The position numbers and the translations under genes were made by a program. From a virus, in IMG/VR virus record IMGVR_UViG_3300042987_000510, positions 1 to 24,085 of that record: DNA of 24,085 bases; one strand, 5' to 3'. Shown here one piece after another: positions 2,856-23,820 of this stretch. Every line of letters begins with the position of its first letter. Position 1 is the first letter of the stretch. The notes beneath the pieces were generated by a model. The model searched no databases. It saw nothing but the letters and a program-made list of their open reading frames with translations, and was not told where the DNA came from.

Positions 2856-3446
2856 TCAGAAGTCCCAGGCCGGTGAGTCGAGCACGTTCATCGCTTCGGC
2901 CTGCGCGGGCGCGGATGGGGTTGCATCCTTCGGCCAATACTTCTGGAACAGACTCGCCCCGCCTTCGGCCAAGGTTCCCACGGCAGCCATGCGGTAGGAG
3001 TTCTTCGCCGATCGCGCATCCGCCATGCCGAGCGCCGCGTCGTACTGCTTGCCCTTGGCCTGCATCTCGAAGAGACGACCCTTCTCCTCACCACCGTAGA
3101 GGGCCGCCTGGACGTTGTACGACCGCTGGGCCATCGCGCTCGCCATGATGTTGAGCACGGTCGGGTCCGCCCCGCCTGCGCCCGCGCGAGCCTGGATGGC
3201 GGACATGAGACGCTGACCTTCCAACCCCTTGAAGTACGCGTCCCTCTGGGACGCTGCCTTCGCCTGGCCGGCGTTGATGCGAAGCTGGGCCGCCTCGAAC
3301 TCTGCCGCTTGCTGTCTGCGAGACGCCGCTTCGACCGCGGCCTTGCCAATGCCAAGAGCACCGGCAGCCTTGAGCCCGGAGCCGAACGCCAGCGTGAGCG
3401 CCGGCACGTACTGCTTGCTGAATATTTTTCCGAAGTCGAAATCCAT
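2856..3446 (-). CDS. Internal virion protein, gp14-like
   Basis: The chosen ATG at 3446 (MDFDFGKIFSK) gives 196 residues; it follows the previous stop by two bases and has a GAGGTG ribosome site about seven bases upstream that overlaps that stop. Longer in-frame starts would overlap the tail gene and lack support. The sequence has an N-terminal hydrophobic Ala/Gly segment (about residues 12-40), a long Ala/Gln/Arg helix (about 40-85), then an AGAGGADPTVLNIMA segment and another helix. This pattern (helix, Gly-rich turn with a DPTV-like element, helix) matches the short internal virion proteins found just after the tail tube genes in many podoviruses. It probably joins the ejected core complex. 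Identification is by pattern memory and position. Confidence 0.75.
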   Translation of the reverse strand: MDFDFGKIFSKQYVPALTLAFGSGLKAAGALGIGKAAVEAASRRQQAAEFEAAQLRINAGQAKAASQRDAYFKGLEGQRLMSAIQARAGAGGADPTVLNIMASAMAQRSYNVQAALYGGEEKGRLFEMQAKGKQYDAALGMADARSAKNSYRMAAVGTLAEGGASLFQKYWPKDATPSAPAQAEAMNVLDSPAWDF

Positions 3447-3448
3447 AA

Positions 3449-6400
3449 TCACACCTCGGCCACGAGTTTGACTGCCAGCACGGTACACGGCCTCGGTGCC
3501 TGGGCCTTCAGGCATATGCGAAGATCGGTCGCCCAGGTCGAGGGAAACTGTATCATGTCGGCGTCATAGTCCGTATCGATGTTGTCCGGGTCCACGGGCG
3601 CCCAGCCGTCCATCTCCGGGCGATCGTCCAGCGTGTCGTAGTCCGGGCCGAACCGGATTCCCTTGGCGTGCGTGTCAGCCAGCACGAGTGCCAGCCCGGT
3701 GATCCGGCGCTCCTTGCCGAACAGGATCTCGGTCTGAGTCTGCAGCATGAGCTTGGAGCTTTTGAACCGCGCATAGTACGGCAGGCCGACGGTGATGTTG
3801 GTCGTGGCCGCCGGCAACGTGATCTCGCCGTTCGCCACGGTGTAGGTCTGCTCGTAGTTCTCGTCCGTACCGAGATCCACACCATCTGCCCACACGACGA
3901 CGTCTTCGCCTTCCAGGTGATCGAGCCCGGTCACGGTGTCGGTCGCGACCCCGCTGTAGTTCACGTAGCTGTCGGCCAGATTGTTGAGGAAGTCGTCGGT
4001 CGTCCCCTCGACGATCAGCGTGCCCGTGGAATCGTAGAGAACCTCGGGCCCACCGTAGGTGATCTTGACGAGGTAGAGGTTGCCACCAGAGGCGGCCTTC
4101 ACTGCGACGTATCCGTAGTTCGACTGGTACGAGAGTGTCGGCGGCACCAGATTCCACGGATAGATGTCCGCGGTGCTGTCGGTCAGGCTCACGGTCACCG
4201 TGTCGACAAGCACCTTGGGGTTGCCCGTGTACCGGTAGATGTACGCACGCCCGGAAGCCGCGTCCGCCCGGTAAGCCATGAATAGCACATCGGTCGCTTC
4301 ATCGTAGTGAATCCAGCGACCGTAGTACGCACCGCCTGCTTCAAACGTCATTAGCTGTTCCCACGTGCCGCTGTTGGCAGTCGGCGTGGTCGACCATCCC
4401 GAGTACGCGTACAGGTAGGCAGGGCTGCTCGATCCCGTGTCCGCAACGATGACGTAGAGCTTCTGCGTCACCGAGTCGTAGGCAGGCCGGCTCTTGATCT
4501 GTAGAACCGAGCCCGCAAGCAGAGGCCCGTCGTGAATTGCGTACGCGCCCGTGGTCGCGACAATCTGAAACAGCTTGGTGCCAGGGGTCGTTGGTGCTGG
4601 CACTTGCTTGCCGAGCCACAGATGATTGTTGCTGTCCCAGACGGCCGGGCGGAACCCCGAATTGAAATCAAAGTTGACGTTGGTGATCGTCCACACGGCC
4701 GCGCCCAGGCTTCCGCCGCTGATGCTCGGGGTGTACATGCTCATTGTCGAACTGTAACCGAGCCACACGCGAGACGGTGTGTCCTGGGCCGCGAGGAAGT
4801 AGGACGGGTTGAGCCCGATGTACCCCATGTCGGTGAGCACGTGCGTGGTCGTGTTCATTACCTTGATGGGGCCGTTCGGCGTGAACCGGCCCGAGATCCA
4901 CAGGTTGCCGCCCTCCTTGGACAGGCCGCCGATCAGCGTGAGTGCCCCCGAGCTTTCAATGTCGCCTATGCCGGTGACCACTTCCGGAGGAGACGTGAAC
5001 GTCGCCTCATCATGGATCGAGACGTCATCGCTGTTGCTGCCGACCGCATAAATTTCCGCAAGGTCCGCGTTGTACACCGCGCCGACCGTGTCATCCGGGT
5101 AGGTCGCGTTGACGTCCGTCTCGCAGAAGTCGAACGTGCTGTAGGCATTGAGCAGGCTCGCATCCCCCAGCCCGAGGCCGCCGCGAGACTGGCTCGCCTG
5201 CGACCACTTCTCCAGGTAGCGAACTGTCGCACCATCGATCGTGCGCTTGACGACGTAGTAGATGTAGTCGTCTGTCACGCCCGACTGCGCAGGCAGCACG
5301 ACGACATCCTCGACTTCACCCAGCGTGTCGATCTCGCACCAGGCAGTCACATCTTCGTTCTTGTCGATCACGAGCAGCGCAACCGTTCCATCGGATCGGA
5401 TACAGTGGATGCGCGTGTCGGGCTGCCGTTGCACGGCCAGGCGAACGATCCCGGGGGAGCCGATCTCAGGCACGAGCGCGCACAGGTCATTGGCACTGTA
5501 TTCCAGCGTGCCGCTGGCGAGCGCGTTCTCGTAGACCTTCATGCCGGTTCTATTCGCGAAGATCGCGCGCGAGTCCATGCGACCAGGCATGACCGGGGCC
5601 GAGCCCTGGTCGCTCGTTGCTTTCACGTTGAACTGCGTGGGGGTCAGCGGTTCATCGAGCGAGGACGATCTGGCGGCGTACTCGTTGAGGTCCGCACCGA
5701 TCAGCAGCCGCTGGGACGACACGAGCCAGTTGATGTTGTCGACCGGGCCCGCGCCGAGGCTGCGCGAGATCGGACCCGCATCCCCTTCGTAGTCCGGGTC
5801 AAACGAGTCGAACGCATCGGTGATGCTTCCCCATACCTTCGACTTGCCGGCCCACCACAGGCGCCCCTCGTGGAACGTGACCGCAGTCGGCCAGCCGCGA
5901 TAGTCTGACCAGGCACCCTCGGCCCAGATTTCCGTGGCGCCCGTGCCACCCAGATCACTCAGCACGTCGGCGCTGACCGACGTGACGCTAGTGAACCCGG
6001 TGATACGCACGACCCCGGACGTCGACCCGAGCGCGTAGTCGAGGGTGGCAGTCAGCGTCCCCGAGGTGTAGTTGCCAGTTTTGAATCCGATCCGATACCA
6101 CGCGATCTGGTTGTCCAGACCATCGTCATATGTCTCGGTGGTGTTTGCGGTCCAGCTTAGGGTGGTCACGTCTTCCCATGGACCTTCGTCGGAATCGAGA
6201 GATCGTTGCAGCGTGACCGTGCCGGCCCACGTGCCGGCGAGGATGATCGTGAACACGCGAGACGAATCCACGCCTGTGATGCGGATCGCGTTGGTGAACG
6301 TGTCCGCGGCCGAGATGTTGCTCGCGACCGTCTGCCCGTCCGAGGTGAGACGAAAGAGCGCGCCAACGTGGGTCGTGCGGAAGAGGTTGGTGCTTGCGGT

Positions 6401-7327
6401 GAGCGTGATCGAGCCCGTTATCGCACTCGGGGTCAGGGTCGTGTTGGTGACGTTCTCGGTTCTGAACGGGCCATCCTCGGGCTCGTACTTGACGACGCTC
6501 CACGAGTGAATGTCCCAGCGCTGGATAATGTATGGTGCGACGTCCGCACACGCGACGAAGACGTAGTCACCGGACTGGTCCCACCGGATATCGTCCAGGT
6601 TGGACGAAGTCCAGGGGGCGTCGATCGAGAACACGCCAGCGGACTCGACCGTGACCGAGTTGACCAGCACCGGGCGCGCAAGGCGGGACATGATGCGAAT
6701 GTAGAACGTCGTGCCGGTCGGCGTGAACGCAAGCGAATGGGTGCCGGTGCCGAGGGAAAGCTCGCGCACGTACTGCTCGCCACCTTGCACGGTGCCGACC
6801 ATGAACGTCACAGGGCCCCGGATGACCGACACGCGGATCGCGTGCTCGATGTTCACGTCACCCCCGGACACGGTCACGGCTTGGTCGAGGATCGCCGCAT
6901 TGGTGCCGTCGCCCAGGAGTTGCGCGTACCCGGAGCTATTCCAGGTCGATGCCGCGCCAGTTTCGTCGTTGTCGGTCCAGCCGCTGATATCGCTCGTGAA
7001 GTTGCCGTTGGTGATGCCAGTGCCGACTGTTTCACGTGTAACCAGTTCGTCCGACCACCAGACCCGCATCGTGGTGTTGGTGATCTCAAGCAAGTGTGTG
7101 TCGGTGACCGAGAACACGAACGGGATGAACTTGGCAGCCAGGTTCGAGCGCGTGGACCCAAGGTACTTCCACCCGGGGCGGATACTCATGGAGCCCAACA
7201 CGCGAGGGATGAAGTTCCACATCTCCTCGGCGGACATGGCGAGCCGCTTGACGTCCACGCGAGCAAGCCCCAGCCGGGAGACGATCCCCCGGTTGAAGGC
7301 GAGCAGGGCTGTCGTCAGTTGCCCCAT
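3449..7327 (-). CDS. Tail tubular protein B-like tail protein with inserted domains
   Basis: The gene encodes 1292 residues from an ATG whose A is shared with the stop of the gene before it (TGATG). The N-terminus (MGQLTTALLAFNRGIVS, then SAEEMWNFIPRVLGSM) and the C-terminal part (TGLDHLEGEDVVVWADG, then GLPYYARFKSSKLML and ERRITGLALVL) match the tail tubular/stabilisation proteins of podoviruses that form the tail nozzle. Residues about 100-235 look like a beta-sandwich, carbohydrate-binding-type domain (NGNFTSDISGWTDNDETGA onward). Residues about 745-1110 form an extra region with seven repeated beta-rich elements, consistent with a seven-bladed propeller inserted between the LEKWSQ element and the C-terminal nozzle part. 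Relatives I know are markedly shorter. The inserted domains may contact the host surface. Confidence 0.85.
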   Translation of the reverse strand: MGQLTTALLAFNRGIVSRLGLARVDVKRLAMSAEEMWNFIPRVLGSMSIRPGWKYLGSTRSNLAAKFIPFVFSVTDTHLLEITNTTMRVWWSDELVTRETVGTGITNGNFTSDISGWTDNDETGAASTWNSSGYAQLLGDGTNAAILDQAVTVSGGDVNIEHAIRVSVIRGPVTFMVGTVQGGEQYVRELSLGTGTHSLAFTPTGTTFYIRIMSRLARPVLVNSVTVESAGVFSIDAPWTSSNLDDIRWDQSGDYVFVACADVAPYIIQRWDIHSWSVVKYEPEDGPFRTENVTNTTLTPSAITGSITLTASTNLFRTTHVGALFRLTSDGQTVASNISAADTFTNAIRITGVDSSRVFTIILAGTWAGTVTLQRSLDSDEGPWEDVTTLSWTANTTETYDDGLDNQIAWYRIGFKTGNYTSGTLTATLDYALGSTSGVVRITGFTSVTSVSADVLSDLGGTGATEIWAEGAWSDYRGWPTAVTFHEGRLWWAGKSKVWGSITDAFDSFDPDYEGDAGPISRSLGAGPVDNINWLVSSQRLLIGADLNEYAARSSSLDEPLTPTQFNVKATSDQGSAPVMPGRMDSRAIFANRTGMKVYENALASGTLEYSANDLCALVPEIGSPGIVRLAVQRQPDTRIHCIRSDGTVALLVIDKNEDVTAWCEIDTLGEVEDVVVLPAQSGVTDDYIYYVVKRTIDGATVRYLEKWSQASQSRGGLGLGDASLLNAYSTFDFCETDVNATYPDDTVGAVYNADLAEIYAVGSNSDDVSIHDEATFTSPPEVVTGIGDIESSGALTLIGGLSKEGGNLWISGRFTPNGPIKVMNTTTHVLTDMGYIGLNPSYFLAAQDTPSRVWLGYSSTMSMYTPSISGGSLGAAVWTITNVNFDFNSGFRPAVWDSNNHLWLGKQVPAPTTPGTKLFQIVATTGAYAIHDGPLLAGSVLQIKSRPAYDSVTQKLYVIVADTGSSSPAYLYAYSGWSTTPTANSGTWEQLMTFEAGGAYYGRWIHYDEATDVLFMAYRADAASGRAYIYRYTGNPKVLVDTVTVSLTDSTADIYPWNLVPPTLSYQSNYGYVAVKAASGGNLYLVKITYGGPEVLYDSTGTLIVEGTTDDFLNNLADSYVNYSGVATDTVTGLDHLEGEDVVVWADGVDLGTDENYEQTYTVANGEITLPAATTNITVGLPYYARFKSSKLMLQTQTEILFGKERRITGLALVLADTHAKGIRFGPDYDTLDDRPEMDGWAPVDPDNIDTDYDADMIQFPSTWATDLRICLKAQAPRPCTVLAVKLVAEV

Positions 7328-7971
7328 CAGTACAGATCCCCCGTCCGGTAACCGAGGTCGTCGCGCGCGGAGTTGCTCATGCGAGCCCGGTTCCATCGGC
7401 CGGGAGGCAGCACCTTCGACGGGTCCGCCATCGCATCCTTGTTGAGCGCAAGCTTCTTCAGGCGCTCGGTTCGCTTTTCTGCTTTCTTCAGCGCCTCTTC
7501 GGAGGTGCTCATCTTGAATACAACCCGCTCGGCGAACCAGGCGGCGACGAAGTCCTCGAAGCTCCCGGGCCACCGGTTCATGTCGAGCCCGTATGCCTCG
7601 TCGTCGGACACGTACCGCACGTAGATCGAGTCGAGGTCCGCGTACCAATACCCAGCCTCGTCCACGTACCCGAGGAGGGGCTGTCGGAAGTAGGCGTCCT
7701 GGCAGACCGCAGACGTGACAACCCAGTCCGAGGGCTTGCTGAACGCACGCGAGTACCCGAAGGGTGGGGCCACGAGAGGATCGTAGTCGATCTGGATCGT
7801 TCGCATGGCGAACTTCCACTGCCCCTGCTCCAGGCACTTGCGGACCCCGCCCGTATCCCAGACTTGGTCGAGCAGCCGGCGGGGCTCCCGGGCTTCCGTA
7901 AGCGATGCGATGGCCCGCTCGCCCGCCATCAGCAATGCATTGTTGTAGAGCGTCAGTCGGCTGATCGTCAT
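7327..7971 (-). CDS. Tail tubular protein A-like head-tail adaptor
   Basis: The gene encodes 214 residues from ATG at 7971, which overlaps the previous stop (ATGA). The N-terminus MTISRLTLYNNALLMAGE is the hallmark of podovirus tail tubular A-like proteins (T7 gp11 group), which bind below the portal and join it to the nozzle. Further typical elements are the CLEQGQWKFAMR segment near residue 45, the FSKPSDWV segment, and the helical FVAAWFAERVVFKM region, followed by a Lys/Glu-rich helix and an Arg-rich tail ending NRARMSNSARDDLGYR. Its place immediately before the tail tubular B-like gene is the standard order. A much longer reading upstream in the same frame is rejected because it runs antisense-free through the neighbouring gene and has no family match. 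Confidence 0.88.
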   Translation of the reverse strand: MTISRLTLYNNALLMAGERAIASLTEAREPRRLLDQVWDTGGVRKCLEQGQWKFAMRTIQIDYDPLVAPPFGYSRAFSKPSDWVVTSAVCQDAYFRQPLLGYVDEAGYWYADLDSIYVRYVSDDEAYGLDMNRWPGSFEDFVAAWFAERVVFKMSTSEEALKKAEKRTERLKKLALNKDAMADPSKVLPPGRWNRARMSNSARDDLGYRTGDLY

Positions 7972-18293: not shown

Positions 18294-19291
18294 CAGTCGA
18301 CGTCCTCCAGCTTGGCAGGCTCGCCGATATCGACGCCCCGCGTCACACGCCGGTTGAGAAACTTGCCAAGGTCAGCCGGCGAAGCACCGAGCGCTGGGCG
18401 CGCGGTGCGAAGGTGGCGCCGTTGAACGTACGATCCAGCCGCAAGCGGTTCAGCCCAGTACAGGCTGCGTCGGAACTGAAGGCTCGGCTTCTCCTCGTCA
18501 GTCGGTCCGTAACGCACCTCACCGAACGCCAGAGCCGCTTCACGGCAGGCGTCGACCATGGCCTTGAACTCGTGGGGTTCGGACGAGAACCCTGCGTCTG
18601 GCCCGCCGTCGGAACGCTTGAGCGTGATGTGCTTCTCGATCATGGTGGCGCCGAGCGCGGTCGCGGCCACGGGGACGACGAGCCCGAGCGTATGGTCGGA
18701 GATGCCCGTGTAGCCAGCGTAGTAACCCAGCAGGTCCATGGTGGCGAGATTCGCGCTAGCGGCGGTTGCCGGATATGCGCTCGTACACTTTAACAGCGTG
18801 ATGTCCTCAAGCCCTGTCTGCTCGGCCGCATTCCACGCACAGGTCACCTCGTCCTCGCTCGCCATCCCAGTTGATATGACAATAGGCTTGCCCGTCTTCG
18901 CGACCGCTTCGATGAGCGGCAGATCCACGATCTCGAAGCTCGCGATCTTGTACCGGGGGCAATCGAGCGATTCAAGGAAGGCGAGCGACTCGTGATCGAA
19001 CACGGATGCGAAACACTCGATCTTGTGCGACTTCGCGTAGTCAAAGAGCGCAGGGAACCACGCCCACGGGGTCCACGCTTTGCGATACAGGTCGCGCATC
19101 TTCTGCCCGTTCCAGGCGGTCCCCTGGATCGTGTGGTCACCCAGCACCATCATATCTTCCTCCCAGCACTGGAACTTGACCGCATCGGCGCCGGCCCAGG
19201 CTGCGTTGTCGATCAGGTCCAGGGCGCGAGGCAAACTGCCCAGGTGGTTGCACGACACCTCGGCCACGATGTACGGACTACGGCTTTGCAT
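18293..19291 (-). CDS. pseI: Pseudaminic acid / nonulosonic acid synthase (PseI/NeuB family)
   Basis: The gene encodes 332 residues and is complete. The TIM-barrel NeuB domain starts with YIVAEVSCNHLGSLPRALDL and has GADAVKFQCW near 35-43; the metal-ligand histidines lie in GISDHTLG (His200) and IEKHITLKRSDGG (His221). The C-terminal antifreeze-like SAF domain follows (about 274-332) with RRSLYWAEPLAAG, RPALG.SP and DIGEP. The enzyme condenses phosphoenolpyruvate with a 2,4-diacetamido-hexose to make the nine-carbon sugar. The SAF wording is closer to PseI (pseudaminic) than to sialic acid NeuB, but LegI or another nonulosonate synthase cannot be excluded. The start overlaps the preceding acetyltransferase gene by 14 bases. 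Confidence 0.92.
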   Translation of the reverse strand: MQSRSPYIVAEVSCNHLGSLPRALDLIDNAAWAGADAVKFQCWEEDMMVLGDHTIQGTAWNGQKMRDLYRKAWTPWAWFPALFDYAKSHKIECFASVFDHESLAFLESLDCPRYKIASFEIVDLPLIEAVAKTGKPIVISTGMASEDEVTCAWNAAEQTGLEDITLLKCTSAYPATAASANLATMDLLGYYAGYTGISDHTLGLVVPVAATALGATMIEKHITLKRSDGGPDAGFSSEPHEFKAMVDACREAALAFGEVRYGPTDEEKPSLQFRRSLYWAEPLAAGSYVQRRHLRTARPALGASPADLGKFLNRRVTRGVDIGEPAKLEDVD

Positions 19292-19709
19292 AGGTCACCT
19301 GTAGCAGTTTGAAGCCGAGGGACTCCCACATGCGGATGCTGGCCTCATTCTTCGGGTTGATGTTGGCAAGGAACGGCCCCGGGTGCAGGGCCATCAGTTC
19401 ACGCACCGCGGCGCTGCCATACCCCTTGCGCTGTTGATTGAGGAAGATCGACACGCCGATCTCGTTGCGATTGGACAGGTAGATCGCGCCGACCGACTTG
19501 CCGTCGGCCAGGATCTCGTACCACTTGGTGTAGGGCTTGCGCTCGACAAAGGCGCGGTGTTCTTCCATCGTCGGCATGCGCCTGTGGCTGATGCTCTGAT
19601 CTGGTGTTCGCTCGGAGAGCAACGCGTAGAGCGGGCCGATGAAGTAATCCCAGCGGGTGTAGATGTCGACCAACGTGATCACGATGCTTCGCCCACGCTT
19701 GGTTCTCAC
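19278..19709 (-). CDS. GNAT N-acetyltransferase of the sugar operon (candidate PseH)
   Basis: The gene encodes 143 residues from GTG at 19709, overlapping the previous stop (GTGA), with a GGAGGTG ribosome site. The fold is clear: HRRMPTMEEHRAFVERKPYT then KWYEILADGKSVGAIYL, a strand EIGVSIFL, the acetyl-CoA loop NQQRKGYGSAAVRELM (residues 91-106), and ANINPKNEASIRMWESLGFK. The Q-x-x-x-G-x-G loop is intact. In the pseudaminic pathway PseH acetylates the 4-amino group of the UDP-4-amino sugar before the synthase step, and this gene lies directly before the synthase, so PseH-type activity is the simplest reading. It could instead acylate another position of the final sugar. Confidence 0.82.
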   Translation of the reverse strand: MRTKRGRSIVITLVDIYTRWDYFIGPLYALLSERTPDQSISHRRMPTMEEHRAFVERKPYTKWYEILADGKSVGAIYLSNRNEIGVSIFLNQQRKGYGSAAVRELMALHPGPFLANINPKNEASIRMWESLGFKLLQVTYAKP

Positions 19710-20422
19710 AACCTCACCTCCACACCGTACTCATCGAGATACTGGGCGGCCGCCCGGGGCGTGGCGTCCGTGAACTGGAACAGGGCCCCAGCAGCCACGG
19801 CAGAGGCGCCATGCCCGATCGCGGCCAGCATGTCCGCGTATCCGCTGCACCCGCCATGCGCGATGACAGGTATGTCAACGACATGCGCCACTGACCGTAT
19901 CAGGTCCAGGTCGTAGCCTTCCATCGTACCCTCGCGGTCCATGGCCGTAAGCAGGATCTCGCCGGCACCTCGGCGCTCGATGTCCTTGGCGAGATCGAGT
20001 ACCAGCGTCGTGCGACCTTCATCCCTCACGTCGAGCGCCACCACGATCGCCTGCGATCCGAAGCGGTACGCGCAAGCGTCCAGGAAGTCGAAGTCCGCCT
20101 GATATGCGGTCTTGATGCACACCTTGTCCGCACCGGCGCGCAGCAGCCCTTCCACGTCCGCGATCGAGCGCACACCGCCGCCCACGGTCAAGGGCATGAA
20201 GCAGTCCTGGGTGAGCGCTTCGATCATGGCGAAGTTGGGCCCGTTGCCCGCGGGGGTCGCGCCCACATCGAGGATGCACAGTTCATCGACGCCTCGGGCT
20301 TGGTGTACGCGCGCGGCCTGCTGCACGTGGCCGATGACGCGGTCTGCGCTGAAGCGCCGCCCTTTGACGAGCTTCGTACCCTTGGCGAGAAGGGTCGGAA
20401 TTATTCGTACTGCGAGGCCCAC
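19706..20422 (-). CDS. hisF: HisF-like cyclase-subunit paralogue, probable partner of the amidotransferase
   Basis: The gene encodes 238 residues from GTG at 20422, overlapping the previous gene by 22 bases. It is a complete (beta/alpha)8 HisF barrel: AVRIIPTLLAKGTKLVKGRR, CILDVGATPAGNGPN, PLTVGGGVRSIADV, IVVALDVRDEG, GEILLTAMDREGTMEGYDL and PVIAHGGCSGYADM. The catalytic aspartate of true HisF (in IIACLDVKDG) is replaced by Leu12, while the second (Asp131) remains. This substitution and the position next to a PseA/WbpG-type amidotransferase match the HisF2 paralogues that channel ammonia to sugar amidation in O-antigen loci. A HisH glutaminase is not in view. Histidine biosynthesis is therefore unlikely. 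Confidence 0.88.
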   Translation of the reverse strand: MGLAVRIIPTLLAKGTKLVKGRRFSADRVIGHVQQAARVHQARGVDELCILDVGATPAGNGPNFAMIEALTQDCFMPLTVGGGVRSIADVEGLLRAGADKVCIKTAYQADFDFLDACAYRFGSQAIVVALDVRDEGRTTLVLDLAKDIERRGAGEILLTAMDREGTMEGYDLDLIRSVAHVVDIPVIAHGGCSGYADMLAAIGHGASAVAAGALFQFTDATPRAAAQYLDEYGVEVRL

Positions 20423-21459
20423 TTCTCACATTCCCGTTGCCACTCGGTTGGAGAGATGCCGACGTAGGCAAGTACCTCACCGATCGGCTTGCCCAGGCTC
20501 GTGAGCGGTGTGTGACCTGCTCGACCAACAAGTTGTAGTGCCTCAGCACGCGAGAGGCGTCCTCGGCGCACATGGTTGCAAGCAATGTCCGTAGCTCGCG
20601 TATAGCCGTACTTGAGCCACCGTAGATGATCACGTAGTACAGTGACATAGTTGTCCAGGTTCTCGTAGTTGGCGAGGCTTGTCTCTACCGGGCACGGGGC
20701 CACCTCGAACCCATACTGCTGGGCAATGAACGCGTTCTTCCACCCATCCCAATCTACGTAGTCCCCGAGCCATATGCCGTTGACATCGGCGGTGTCGAGC
20801 GCTTCATCGGTCGGGAACCGGAAGACGTCCAGGTCTTGCTCGGTCAGTCCTTCCTGACCCACGATGTCATCGAGCCGCAGGCCGAGGAGCCCTCCGAACT
20901 CGGACACCCACCGGCTCGTGAGACGCGTGGCAGGCGGCACGCCCTCGGGGCATGCGTACTCGCGCTGGGGCTGCTCACCCCACACGACCAACGGGATGCG
21001 GAAGGCGACCGCGATCCGCATCGGGATGGACCAGATGGCGAGGTGCTCGGGGTAGGACAGGTCGCCCACGAGACGCAGGCCGATCCGCATGAGTTTCTTG
21101 CGCACCTCGATGTTCGGCGTCCACTCGATGAGGTCGCAGTAGTGCTTGAGGTTGTCCAGGTTGCGGCGACCGATCGGGGTGAGGTAGTCAGTGCCGGCGT
21201 TGACTGCGAGCACCTTGGCGCCCATGTCACGCAGTGTCAGCACCTGATAGGTCGAGTCCTTGCCCCCGCTCACGGGCACGACGCAGTCGTAGTCCGCGCG
21301 GCCACGGGCGAGCCGCAGGATGGACCGGAGCGCTTCGCCTCTCACGTCCCAGGCGACGTACTTGCGCTCGGCATAGGCACGACAGCCAGAGCACACGCCA
21401 TCGATGAAGTGCGCGTCGGGTCGCGTGTCAGGGTAGATGCACAGGCGGCAGAGGGTCAT
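20401..21459 (-). CDS. pseA: N-acetyl sugar amidotransferase (PseA/WbpG family)
   Basis: The ATG at 21459 overlaps the methyltransferase stop (ATGA) and gives 352 residues beginning MTLCRLCIYPDTRPDAHF. A zinc-finger-like N-terminus has Cys4, Cys7, Cys23 and Cys26 (GVCSGCRAY). The ATP-PPi loop VPVSGGKDSTYQV (SGGKDS at 64-69) follows, then VLAVNAGTDYLTPIGRRNLDNL and a VWGEQPQREYA element. This family converts an N-acetyl group to an acetamidino group on nonulosonic acids (PseA in Campylobacter) or on ManNAc3NAc derivatives (WbpG with HisH/HisF in Pseudomonas). The following gene is the matching HisF-type partner. It implies that the sugar made here carries an acetamidino group. Confidence 0.88.
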   Translation of the reverse strand: MTLCRLCIYPDTRPDAHFIDGVCSGCRAYAERKYVAWDVRGEALRSILRLARGRADYDCVVPVSGGKDSTYQVLTLRDMGAKVLAVNAGTDYLTPIGRRNLDNLKHYCDLIEWTPNIEVRKKLMRIGLRLVGDLSYPEHLAIWSIPMRIAVAFRIPLVVWGEQPQREYACPEGVPPATRLTSRWVSEFGGLLGLRLDDIVGQEGLTEQDLDVFRFPTDEALDTADVNGIWLGDYVDWDGWKNAFIAQQYGFEVAPCPVETSLANYENLDNYVTVLRDHLRWLKYGYTRATDIACNHVRRGRLSRAEALQLVGRAGHTPLTSLGKPIGEVLAYVGISPTEWQRECEKWASQYE

Positions 21460-22025
21460 TTCGTGAACAGCCACGCGGTGCATTGATCGAAGCCGGCGGG
21501 TCGCCACCAACTAGTCACGAGCCGCAACCCAAGGTCCACGTAGACCTTGTCGTAGGGGCGCTTCCAGCACTTGTCATCGTGCCCTCGGTACGGGATCGCC
21601 TCCTCGTAGTCGGACTCGTACTCTACGGCCAGCACCCATCGGAACGACTTGTCGATGATCGCGGCCATCACCTCTCGCACATGCTTGGGCTCAATGTGGA
21701 TCAGGACGCCCGCGGTGAACACGAGGTCGAACTTGCCAGGCACCGCCCGGAAGTCGAGGCAGTTGTACGTCTCCAGGCCCGCGGCGTGCGCCTGTTCGAG
21801 CGCACGCTCGTTGATGTCGCTACCGGCCACGCGCACGTGGGGGTTGTTGAGGCGAATCGCGCTCAGGTTCCAGCCCGCGTTGCAACCCACCTCGAACACG
21901 GATCGAGCGCCAGTCAACTTGATGATGCGGTCCCAGAAGTCGACACGAGCCATCCAGTCCACCTGGTTGCGTTCGGTGTACGCATCACCGAACTCGCCAC
22001 GCCATAGTTCGATACCATCACCCAC
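21456..22025 (-). CDS. Pseudaminic-acid-associated SAM methyltransferase
   Basis: GTG at 22025 is chosen: a GAGGAG site lies eight bases upstream, the overlap with the previous gene is then only 8 bases, and the family starts at the WRGEFGDAYTERN element. The 189-residue product has that element at residues 8-20, SAM motif I VFEVGCNAGWNL at 43-54, acidic motif II VRVAGSDINERAL at 64-76, and a FDLVFTAGVLIHIEP strand-helix at 99-113. The W.GEFG..Y..RN opening is characteristic of the methylase family found in pseudaminic acid loci. It probably methylates an oxygen or the acetamidino nitrogen of the nonulosonate; the position cannot be read from sequence. Confidence 0.82.
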   Translation of the reverse strand: MGDGIELWRGEFGDAYTERNQVDWMARVDFWDRIIKLTGARSVFEVGCNAGWNLSAIRLNNPHVRVAGSDINERALEQAHAAGLETYNCLDFRAVPGKFDLVFTAGVLIHIEPKHVREVMAAIIDKSFRWVLAVEYESDYEEAIPYRGHDDKCWKRPYDKVYVDLGLRLVTSWWRPAGFDQCTAWLFTK

Positions 22026-22608
22026 GGTGCATCTCCTCGTAGAGTTTCTCGGCTCGCTGCCAGTCTTTCTCGGTGTTGATGTCGCAGACGCGCGAGGCAG
22101 GCAGCCTATAGAACGCGGCTTGATCCAGCGGCACACCCGAAATGAACGCTTGCGTCTCACCCCAGTACCACTGACCGGCGTCTTGCCAGTTAGCGCCAAC
22201 GGTGTAGACGTAAGGCACGCGAGGGGCGCGCAGGCGAAGGTAGCCCTCGATCAGGTCCATGCTCGTCATCAGCGGTGCCGTGGCGTATATGCAGCACGCA
22301 TACTTGGGTGGATCGATCACGAGGTGATCAGCCAGGATCGTGTTGAGCGCATCGGCCATCACGGCTTGCGTGCCGACATTGTCGACCGCGAGCCGATCGT
22401 TACGCCAGAGCACGTCCGCGCCGGCACGGTACGCGACCGAACTGATCGCGGGCGAGTCGGTCGAGACGTAGATGCGCGAGAAGAAGCCCGCGTCCTGGGC
22501 AGCCTTGATCGAGTACTCGATGATCGGCTTGCCGTGGAAGAGGCGGATGTTCTTGCCCGGGATGCGACGCGAGCCGCCGCGGGCAGGGATGACGGCGACG
22601 AGGCTCAC
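22018..22608 (-). CDS. pseF: CMP-pseudaminic/nonulosonic acid cytidylyltransferase (PseF/NeuA family)
   Basis: I choose GTG at 22608, which overlaps the previous stop (GTGA) and has a GGAGG site seven bases upstream, over the TTG two codons earlier; this gives 196 residues. The N-terminus has the defining nucleotide loop VIPARGGSRRIPGKNIRLF, then GKPIIEYSIKAAQDAGFF, IYVSTDSPAISSVA, an ADVLWRND element and the substrate-binding C-terminal strand-helix ending CDINTEKDWQRAE. The enzyme activates the nonulosonic acid with CTP. It is somewhat shorter than usual (about 230 residues), mainly in the middle, but the motifs are intact. The PseF subgroup fits the context; LegF or NeuA is the alternative. 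Confidence 0.9.
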   Translation of the reverse strand: MSLVAVIPARGGSRRIPGKNIRLFHGKPIIEYSIKAAQDAGFFSRIYVSTDSPAISSVAYRAGADVLWRNDRLAVDNVGTQAVMADALNTILADHLVIDPPKYACCIYATAPLMTSMDLIEGYLRLRAPRVPYVYTVGANWQDAGQWYWGETQAFISGVPLDQAAFYRLPASRVCDINTEKDWQRAEKLYEEMHRG

Positions 22609-22901
22609 AGGCAAGCCTCCACGACGCGCATCACGATCTCGCTGTTCACCTTGCCATCATCCCAGCGCGCTTGCATGGCGTTGCGCCGGATGTGGCCCAC
22701 ACGCACGACAGCCGTAGCAAGCTGCTGGTCGGTTGGTGCATGGCGAGGCACCTCGACGTTCATCTTCACCTCGAAGCCGCACTGGGTCACGGCGTCGATC
22801 AGGTCACGCGCAAGCTGGATGGCGGCCGGCATGTCGAGTTCGCCGCTTGCGGGAAGCTCAACACGCAGCGCGCGCTTGTCGCCTCGAATCTGGACGGTCA
22901 T
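22605..22901 (-). CDS. 98-residue protein of unknown function in the sugar operon
   Basis: The ATG at 22901 overlaps the preceding stop (ATGA) and the gene ends overlapping the cytidylyltransferase start, so it is read as part of the same coupled series. The product begins MTVQIRGDKRALRVELPASG and continues with an amphipathic helix (MPAAIQLARDLIDAVTQCGF), a strand (FEVKMNVEVPRH) and two helical parts. It has one cysteine and no catalytic, membrane or secretion motif that I recognise. The strand-helix-strand layout could be a small alpha/beta fold. I know no related nonulosonate enzyme of this size, so it is more likely a phage accessory protein than a pathway step. Confidence 0.6.
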   Translation of the reverse strand: MTVQIRGDKRALRVELPASGELDMPAAIQLARDLIDAVTQCGFEVKMNVEVPRHAPTDQQLATAVVRVGHIRRNAMQARWDDGKVNSEIVMRVVEACL

Positions 22902-23167
22902 TTGGCCTCCCCACGCAAACGATCGGCCACGAGCTTGGCATAGCCCGCGATGTCGTCCCACGAATCCACGTAGTCTGGGTCGCCGTTGATGATGCGCCCG
23001 ATCTTGTGCGCAATCATCTCAAGCGCTTCACGCTGGTCCGCTTCGAGCCGCGCCCAGCCAGCGGGAACGTACAGCACCTGTTTCATGGCCTGCGTGACTT
23101 CAGCGTGCTCCTTGAACGGCCCGTATCGGTTGCCTCGCTCTTCGAGGATCTTGTCGATCTCGCTCAC
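22898..23167 (-). CDS. DUF6378-type small phage protein
   Basis: The gene encodes 89 residues from GTG at 23167, overlapping the aminotransferase stop (GTGA), with GGAGGTG upstream. The protein has the opening ILEERGNRYGPFKEHAEVTQ and the central block QREALEMIAHKIGRIINGDP followed by DSWDDIAGYAKLVADRL, which is the pattern of a helical domain very common in phages (DUF6378). Its function is not known; the helical layout loosely recalls MazG-like nucleotide pyrophosphohydrolases, but I do not see their full metal motif. It is not a known nonulosonate gene and its presence inside the operon shows phage genes mixed with the pathway. Confidence 0.8.
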   Translation of the reverse strand: MSEIDKILEERGNRYGPFKEHAEVTQAMKQVLYVPAGWARLEADQREALEMIAHKIGRIINGDPDYVDSWDDIAGYAKLVADRLRGEAK

Positions 23168-23820
23168 TTGAACACCTCCAAGGTTGACAGGTCAGGGTAG
23201 TCGTCGTTGGGCAACGGCTCGTTGTGCCTGGGCAGTGAGTGCAGCTTGAGGATGCCCTGGGCCGCGGTCGACGGGTTCATGTAGCAGTGCCAACCTAGGA
23301 TGATGCCGGTGTCATCCTTCGGCGCCACGCCCTCGGCTCGGCCATCGAAGCGCGCACGTCGGAACCACGCATCGGCCTCGGCATTGTCGTGGAGGATAGC
23401 GCCGCCTTGCTCGATGCCAAGCGTCTTGCTGGCGTGGAAGGAGACGCAAAGGAAGTCGCCGCCTGCATCATCGTACATACCGCTCGTGAACCAACGCGCG
23501 CTATCCCACACCGGCAGCGGGTCAAGCGTGTAGTGCCCGATCCACTCTCGATCCTCGAACACCGGCCGCCCGCCGGCATGGATGATGGCCTGAGGCACAC
23601 TCACGTAGGTACGCTTGGGGATGGTGACAGTCGGCTCGCAGCCCTCGCGCCAGACGTTGGGCCCGACGTATGGACGCACGTCCTTGCCGCTCAGATGCCA
23701 CGCCAACGCGAGCGTGAGCGCCATCGTGCATGAGTTGACCGCTACGACGTAAGGCGCGCCCGTGTACTCGGCGACCGCGGCCTCGAAGTCCTTGGTGACT
23801 TGATGCGGGTTACGGGACAT
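23164..23820 (-). CDS. Short DegT/DnrJ/EryC1 (PseC-type) PLP aminotransferase
   Basis: The gene encodes 218 residues from ATG at 23820, overlapping the dehydratase gene by 11 bases. Fold-type I features are visible: DFEAAVAEYTGAPYVVAVNS and CTMALTLALAWHL at the start, an aspartate in VWDSARWF (Asp106) at the PLP-ring position, and the Schiff-base lysine in SFHASKTLGIEQGGAILHDN (Lys132). It ends soon after GWHCYMNPSTAAQGILKLHS, so the C-terminal small domain of about 130 residues and a middle loop are absent relative to the usual length near 380. No remnant is seen downstream, where the next gene starts at once. The context suggests transfer of an amino group to the 4-keto sugar from PseB. Whether this short form is active is uncertain. 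Confidence 0.82.
   Translation of the reverse strand: MSRNPHQVTKDFEAAVAEYTGAPYVVAVNSCTMALTLALAWHLSGKDVRPYVGPNVWREGCEPTVTIPKRTYVSVPQAIIHAGGRPVFEDREWIGHYTLDPLPVWDSARWFTSGMYDDAGGDFLCVSFHASKTLGIEQGGAILHDNAEADAWFRRARFDGRAEGVAPKDDTGIILGWHCYMNPSTAAQGILKLHSLPRHNEPLPNDDYPDLSTLEVFK

Follow-up and report, generated by a model that had tools for sequence, protein, structure and literature searches.

The nozzle gene and its surroundings

The window, that is, the whole 24,085-base virus record analysed here, carries on its minus strand a gene for a tail nozzle of the T7 gp12 or tail tubular protein B type. The open frame spans 3449-7837 (-), and its proper start is the ATG at 7327 (MGQLTTALL...), giving a protein of 1292 residues. 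Residues 9-731 match the tail protein family phrog_376 (E 3e-154), and the closest solved protein by sequence is the tail nozzle of phage Carin1 (PDB 8ck1_A, E 3.9e-35). An adaptor gene lies upstream, the gene after the nozzle matches an internal virion protein family, and the window stops short of the expected position of a fibre gene. By sequence, by fold (see below) and by its adaptor neighbour, the protein is a tail nozzle of the T7/Carin1 type. The features are as follows.

3449..7327, minus strand: tail nozzle gene, T7 gp12 / tail tubular protein B type (1292 aa, ATG at 7327)
7327..7917, minus strand: upstream gene, T7 gp11-like adaptor (phrog_394, E 1.7e-23; one-base overlap with the nozzle start)
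7019..7327, minus strand: nozzle residues 1-103, N-terminal region, aligned with the Carin1, epsilon15 and BcepC6B nozzles
6632..7018, minus strand: residues 104-232, extra domain, putatively jelly-roll-like (alignment columns 105-232 are empty in Carin1, epsilon15 and BcepC6B)
5183..6631, minus strand: residues 233-715, core seven-bladed propeller including a tip-domain excursion (model and structural matches)
3989..5176, minus strand: residues 718-1113, inserted second domain, predicted to be beta-propeller-like (alignments, two predictions, fold matches)
3452..3988, minus strand: residues 1114-1292, dock (TGLDHLEG...) and C-terminal part of the platform, kept in all relatives

By analogy with T7 (PMC6702177), residues 1-103 may contribute strands to the platform. 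The domain at residues 104-232 (NGNFTSDISGWTDND...) is clade-specific, being present in all close relatives and missing from the nozzles of Carin1, epsilon15 and BcepC6B; its jelly-roll-like naming is suggested by an NGxF..GWTD pattern. Residues 1114-1292 are 73% identical to their counterpart in the related contig L003 and can be aligned with Carin1.

Elsewhere in the window, a run of sugar genes at 18296-23820 (-) encodes a NeuB protein (PF03102, E 2.6e-75), a cytidylyltransferase, a DegT aminotransferase, a HisF-like protein, an amidotransferase-like protein (without a Pfam match), an acetyltransferase and a methyltransferase. Taken together, these genes look like a pathway of the nonulosonic-acid type.

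A large insertion in a small clade

Alignment with the 879-residue nozzles of two relatives (L006 and L007, about 50% identical) places 396 extra residues between G717 and L1114. When 81 nozzles were aligned, the stretch that takes up 406 residues in the window was 11-15 residues long in nearly all relatives. Viral contigs yielded 151 distinct complete nozzles, and in 148 of these the site holds no more than 6 extra residues. The exceptions are L003, with 392 extra residues, L018, with 140, and L202, with 57. The L003 insert is homologous to that of the window, being about 27% identical over 369 residues (26% by blastp, E 8e-14). In two further contigs, L002 and L004, a homologous insert (54-56% identical) starts at the same point and continues up to the contig ends. 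The clade is poorly sampled, because only these three homologous inserts, whole (L003) or partial (L002 and L004), are known beyond the window. Residues 718-1113 are an insertion in the nozzle, present in a small clade.

The preliminary description of this DNA had placed extra residues between the elements LEKWSQ and TGLDHLEG, and had proposed to fix the borders by alignment with relatives. The presence of extra residues is confirmed by that alignment, as relatives bridge the site with few residues; the proposed extent of about 365 residues (3980-5095) is not, the insertion being slightly larger and shifted (396 residues, 3989-5176). The same description recognised that its proposal would fall if all relatives contained the region as part of the core fold. 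This reading, or that of an assembly chimera, might draw on the small number of contigs with the insert, but it is contradicted by the survey of 151 nozzles, by the homologous inserts at the same residue in independent contigs, which show that the insertion is real and no assembly accident, and by the solved nozzles, which do not contain the insert. We therefore regard it as extremely improbable.

In-depth sequence searching covered viral contigs, phage records and the PDB. Comparison of the insert with phage genomes by tblastn (E up to 1) gave no match, and nothing in Pfam or PHROGs scored above the cut-off. An insert profile run against PDB sequences returned a chance match alone (arcelin, E 0.49). 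Among the named propeller families (Reg_prop, Kelch, WD40, NHL and sialidase), no curated cut-off was reached, and Reg_prop alone was seen. Contigs of bacterial and archaeal genomes were also scanned, with the insert or the nozzle as the target; this produced pattern matches, of which none was confirmed as a relative. In viral contigs, patterns derived from the insert only found nothing, patterns from a two-sequence alignment found L003 alone, and a search with the nozzle C-terminus revealed no further carrier of the insert.

Predicted fold of the insertion

Seven similar strand motifs had been noticed in the extra region and read as the blades of one propeller. All of them, and the two flanking elements, are found in one frame on the minus strand (residues are counted from the ATG at 7327).

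Residue 705, minus strand: LEKWSQ, flanking element before the insert
5033..5059, minus strand: blade 1 motif AEIYAVGSN, residue 757; predicted strand, low-confidence blade
4883..4906, minus strand: blade 2 motif NLWISGRF, residue 808; predicted strand
4748..4771, minus strand: blade 3 motif RVWLGYSS, residue 853; predicted strand
4604..4624, minus strand: blade 4 motif HLWLGKQ, residue 902; predicted strand
4439..4462, minus strand: blade 5 motif KLYVIVAD, residue 956; predicted strand
4262..4288, minus strand: blade 6 motif VLFMAYRAD, residue 1014; predicted strand
4088..4117, minus strand: blade 7 motif YGYVAVKAAS, residue 1071; predicted strand, low-confidence blade
Residue 1133, minus strand: TGLDHLEG, flanking element after the insert

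The spacing between the seven motifs is 45-58 residues. Self-similarity of the insert at offsets of 40-62 residues scored 356, compared with 102 +/- 56 for shuffled sequences, and none of 1000 shuffles was as high. Neither the L003 insert nor the nozzle core gave a positive result in this test, so that a clear repeat signal in the sequence is confined to the window insert. Just ahead of the blade 4 motif there is a weak resemblance to Reg_prop (PF07494; Pfam E 0.25, 12.1 bits against a cut-off of 20.4). Residues 974-989 (window 4361-4408 (-), AYSGWSTTPTANSGTW) are among the longest stretches common to the divergent inserts of the window and L003, and may form a binding loop or have a structural role.

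Structure prediction, which the preliminary description had proposed as a check, yielded an all-beta domain that matches beta-propellers throughout. The insert alone, predicted from an alignment of four sequences (mean pLDDT 54, pTM 0.60), is nearly all strand without any long helix, and strands begin at insert residues 41, 91, 136, 185, 239, 296 and 354, coinciding with the seven motifs. When residues 233-1292 were modelled with the 81-sequence alignment, the mean pLDDT was 76.5, with values of mostly 80-97 in the core, and of 34-84 in the insert. The two predictions had different inputs, and the seven motifs are beta strands in both.

Beta-propeller proteins mostly occupied the top matches listed in a Foldseek search of the insert against the PDB (best E 4.1e-6). 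With VIA-align, for which Z 7-8 is typical of models without a clear match according to the tool, the insert aligned with the prolyl oligopeptidase propeller with Z 17.9 and an rmsd of 3.6 over 307 residues (model 12-394). In the in-context model, the propeller 5c2v_B matches the insert alone (model 557-868, Z 15.6). The propellers of prolyl oligopeptidase, BtuG/BT1954 and YncE rank first or high among the structures whose fold resembles the insert; these proteins are, however, cellular and only 5-13% identical to it, and the likeness is one of fold alone.

The models thus show repeated four-stranded blades of 40-60 residues, the arrangement of a propeller, and the insert is predicted to fold as a beta-propeller-like domain. 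Closure of seven blades into a ring is likely rather than demonstrated, because blades 1 and 7 were predicted with low confidence (pLDDT about 23-50, mostly below 50 in both models). The original idea of one seven-bladed propeller is hence upheld as regards the predicted propeller fold, and is likely as regards a ring of exactly seven blades.

A probable second propeller in the nozzle

The nozzle of T7, gp12, is built around a central seven-bladed propeller, and a fibre dock on the outer surface links the end of the propeller with the platform (PMC6702177). The SU10 nozzle likewise has a seven-bladed propeller core, in which inserted Ig-like domains separate blade 2 from blade 3 (PMC9509320). 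One propeller in a nozzle is, on these examples, the rule and a second one the exception. The model of residues 233-1292 matches the Carin1 nozzle 8ck1_A with Z 27.6 (542 residues aligned), LME-1 9efk_M with Z 24.0 and T7 gp12 with Z 19-20. Model residues 1-483 (window residues 233-715) can be aligned with single propellers (7uhy_H, Z 17.2), and residue 715, the last of this core propeller, lies just ahead of the insert. Most likely, therefore, the window nozzle contains two consecutive propellers, and the start of the second immediately follows the end of the first. The proposal of a propeller inserted in a nozzle had missed that the core is itself a seven-bladed propeller; the insertion with its predicted propeller fold stands, as the second of the two. 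Double-propeller proteins align across core and insert with an rmsd of 16-25 A, so that the presence of two propellers is comparable and their arrangement is not.

Profile comparison found no sequence relation between the two propellers (probability 0.7%), and the possibility that the insert is a recent duplicate of the core propeller was rejected. No nozzle with a second propeller was found in the databases searched or in the part of the open literature that was covered. In the nozzle of Anabaena phage A-4L (1015 aa), a weak comparison suggested about 120 extra residues in the C-terminal half, too few for a propeller.

The Carin1 nozzle (gp36 of Cobetia phage Carin1) belongs to the same family as the window nozzle by sequence and structure, but lacks both the second propeller and the domain of residues 104-232; on the other hand, it has about 107 residues of its own from the propeller-end strand to TGLDHLEG, most of them in an 80-residue piece after a YDG element. 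T7 gp12 (PDB 6r21, 7boy) shares the central seven-bladed propeller, fibre dock, platform and tip, but is about 790 residues long and has no inserted propeller, and the sequence searches made here did not find it. SU10 gp17 (PDB 7z47, Z 16.3) also combines a seven-bladed propeller core with extra inserted domains; these are, however, Ig-like and lie between blades 2 and 3, and no propeller follows the core propeller.

Other extra domains are found near the insertion site. L202 has its 57-residue insert (nozzle ORF residues 721-782) at the same site as the window propeller, and by eye this insert resembles a duplicated and degenerate dock element. In L018, a segment of about 134-140 residues (NLITDGGFDSGISNWT...) is located at the final hairpin of the core propeller; this segment (about 3170-3590 (+)) resembles a carbohydrate-binding jelly roll and has no Pfam match. 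The nozzles of Carin1, epsilon15, YA3 and Kp4865-1 have about 80 extra residues a few residues beyond the window insert site. Two further contigs show unusual nozzle frames. L067 (5192-6334 (+)) has a nozzle N-terminus followed by a LamG/lectin-like segment of about 250 residues and then by a frame change, which may be a sequencing error or a real break. In L029 (2587-7131 (+)), the nozzle frame does not stop after the dock element but adds about 700 residues that belong to another, internal virion-like protein, either by fusion or by an assembly join.

Divergence and possible function of the predicted second propeller

The insert is 56, 54 and 27% identical to those of L002, L004 and L003, respectively, while the other parts of the nozzle are 66-92% identical. 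The synonymous comparison rests on L002 and L004, the two pairs without saturation at synonymous sites; pS is 0.61 in the insert and 0.40-0.62 in the core for L002, and 0.51 and 0.50-0.59 for L004. In contrast, pN is 0.29-0.32 in the insert against 0.07-0.22 in the core, that is, about 1.5 to four times higher, and pN/pS is 0.47-0.71 against 0.14-0.42. GC and GC3 of the insert are like those of the rest of the nozzle gene. Since pS is equal to that of the core and pN is higher, the divergence occurred at the protein level and not by import of a foreign copy. This fits an insert that travelled with the gene while its surface changed fast, as host-binding parts do; a pN/pS that is high but below 1 is equally compatible with relaxed constraint.

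The latter view, that the insert is tolerated without a selected role and drifts under weak constraint, would agree with these ratios and with the rarity of the insert in the family. Nevertheless, the frame is open, base composition is that of the rest of the gene, pN/pS is still below 1, and relatives have kept the insert despite strong divergence at their synonymous sites, all of which makes drift unlikely.

Tail nozzles are regarded as parts of the channel and gate, host binding being left to fibres or spikes. The explanation that we favour, with moderate confidence, is an ordinary T7/Carin1-type nozzle that has a surface-exposed second propeller for host binding in the linker leading from the core propeller to the fibre dock and platform. 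The second propeller, of about 396 residues and probably seven blades, would fold independently. If the nozzle is hexameric like that of T7, the tail would be surrounded by six protruding propellers of this kind close to the fibre docks. These could act as modules binding the host surface (a glycan or a surface protein), adding to the tail fibres or partly replacing them, while the core propeller would retain its channel-gating role. Receptor or glycan binding is our best guess for the insert, considering its fast amino-acid change, its adjacency to the fibre dock and the extra domains nearby in relatives. The stronger version, in which the six propellers are receptor-binding devices that replace separate tail fibres, making the nozzle itself the host-recognition module, appears rather doubtful.

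The main rival to a host-binding propeller is that the insert docks or braces tail fibres or spikes, its rapid change following that of the fibre it holds. The insert is indeed located between the core propeller and the dock, where the nozzles of T7 and P-SCSP1u hold their fibres, and epsilon15 and Carin1 have their extra 80-residue piece close by. However, about 98% of the relatives in the family do without the insert, and a propeller of 396 residues exceeds any dock element described in the published nozzle structures compared; we consider docking a serious but minority possibility. An enzyme-like propeller, a lyase or hydrolase acting on surface polysaccharide, is suggested by the presence of propeller polysaccharide lyases among the fold matches (6byp_B, 3pe7). 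These matches are at the level of fold, with about 10% identity, and neither a family match nor a set of catalytic residues was identified in the insert, so that an enzyme seems a quite remote prospect, slightly more so than drift.

The different extra domains found at positions corresponding to window residues about 698-717 and 1114-1130 indicate that natural phages tolerate the insertion of whole domains there. If the linker to the dock indeed carries a large, fast-changing propeller, then new surface functions can be added to the nozzle itself.
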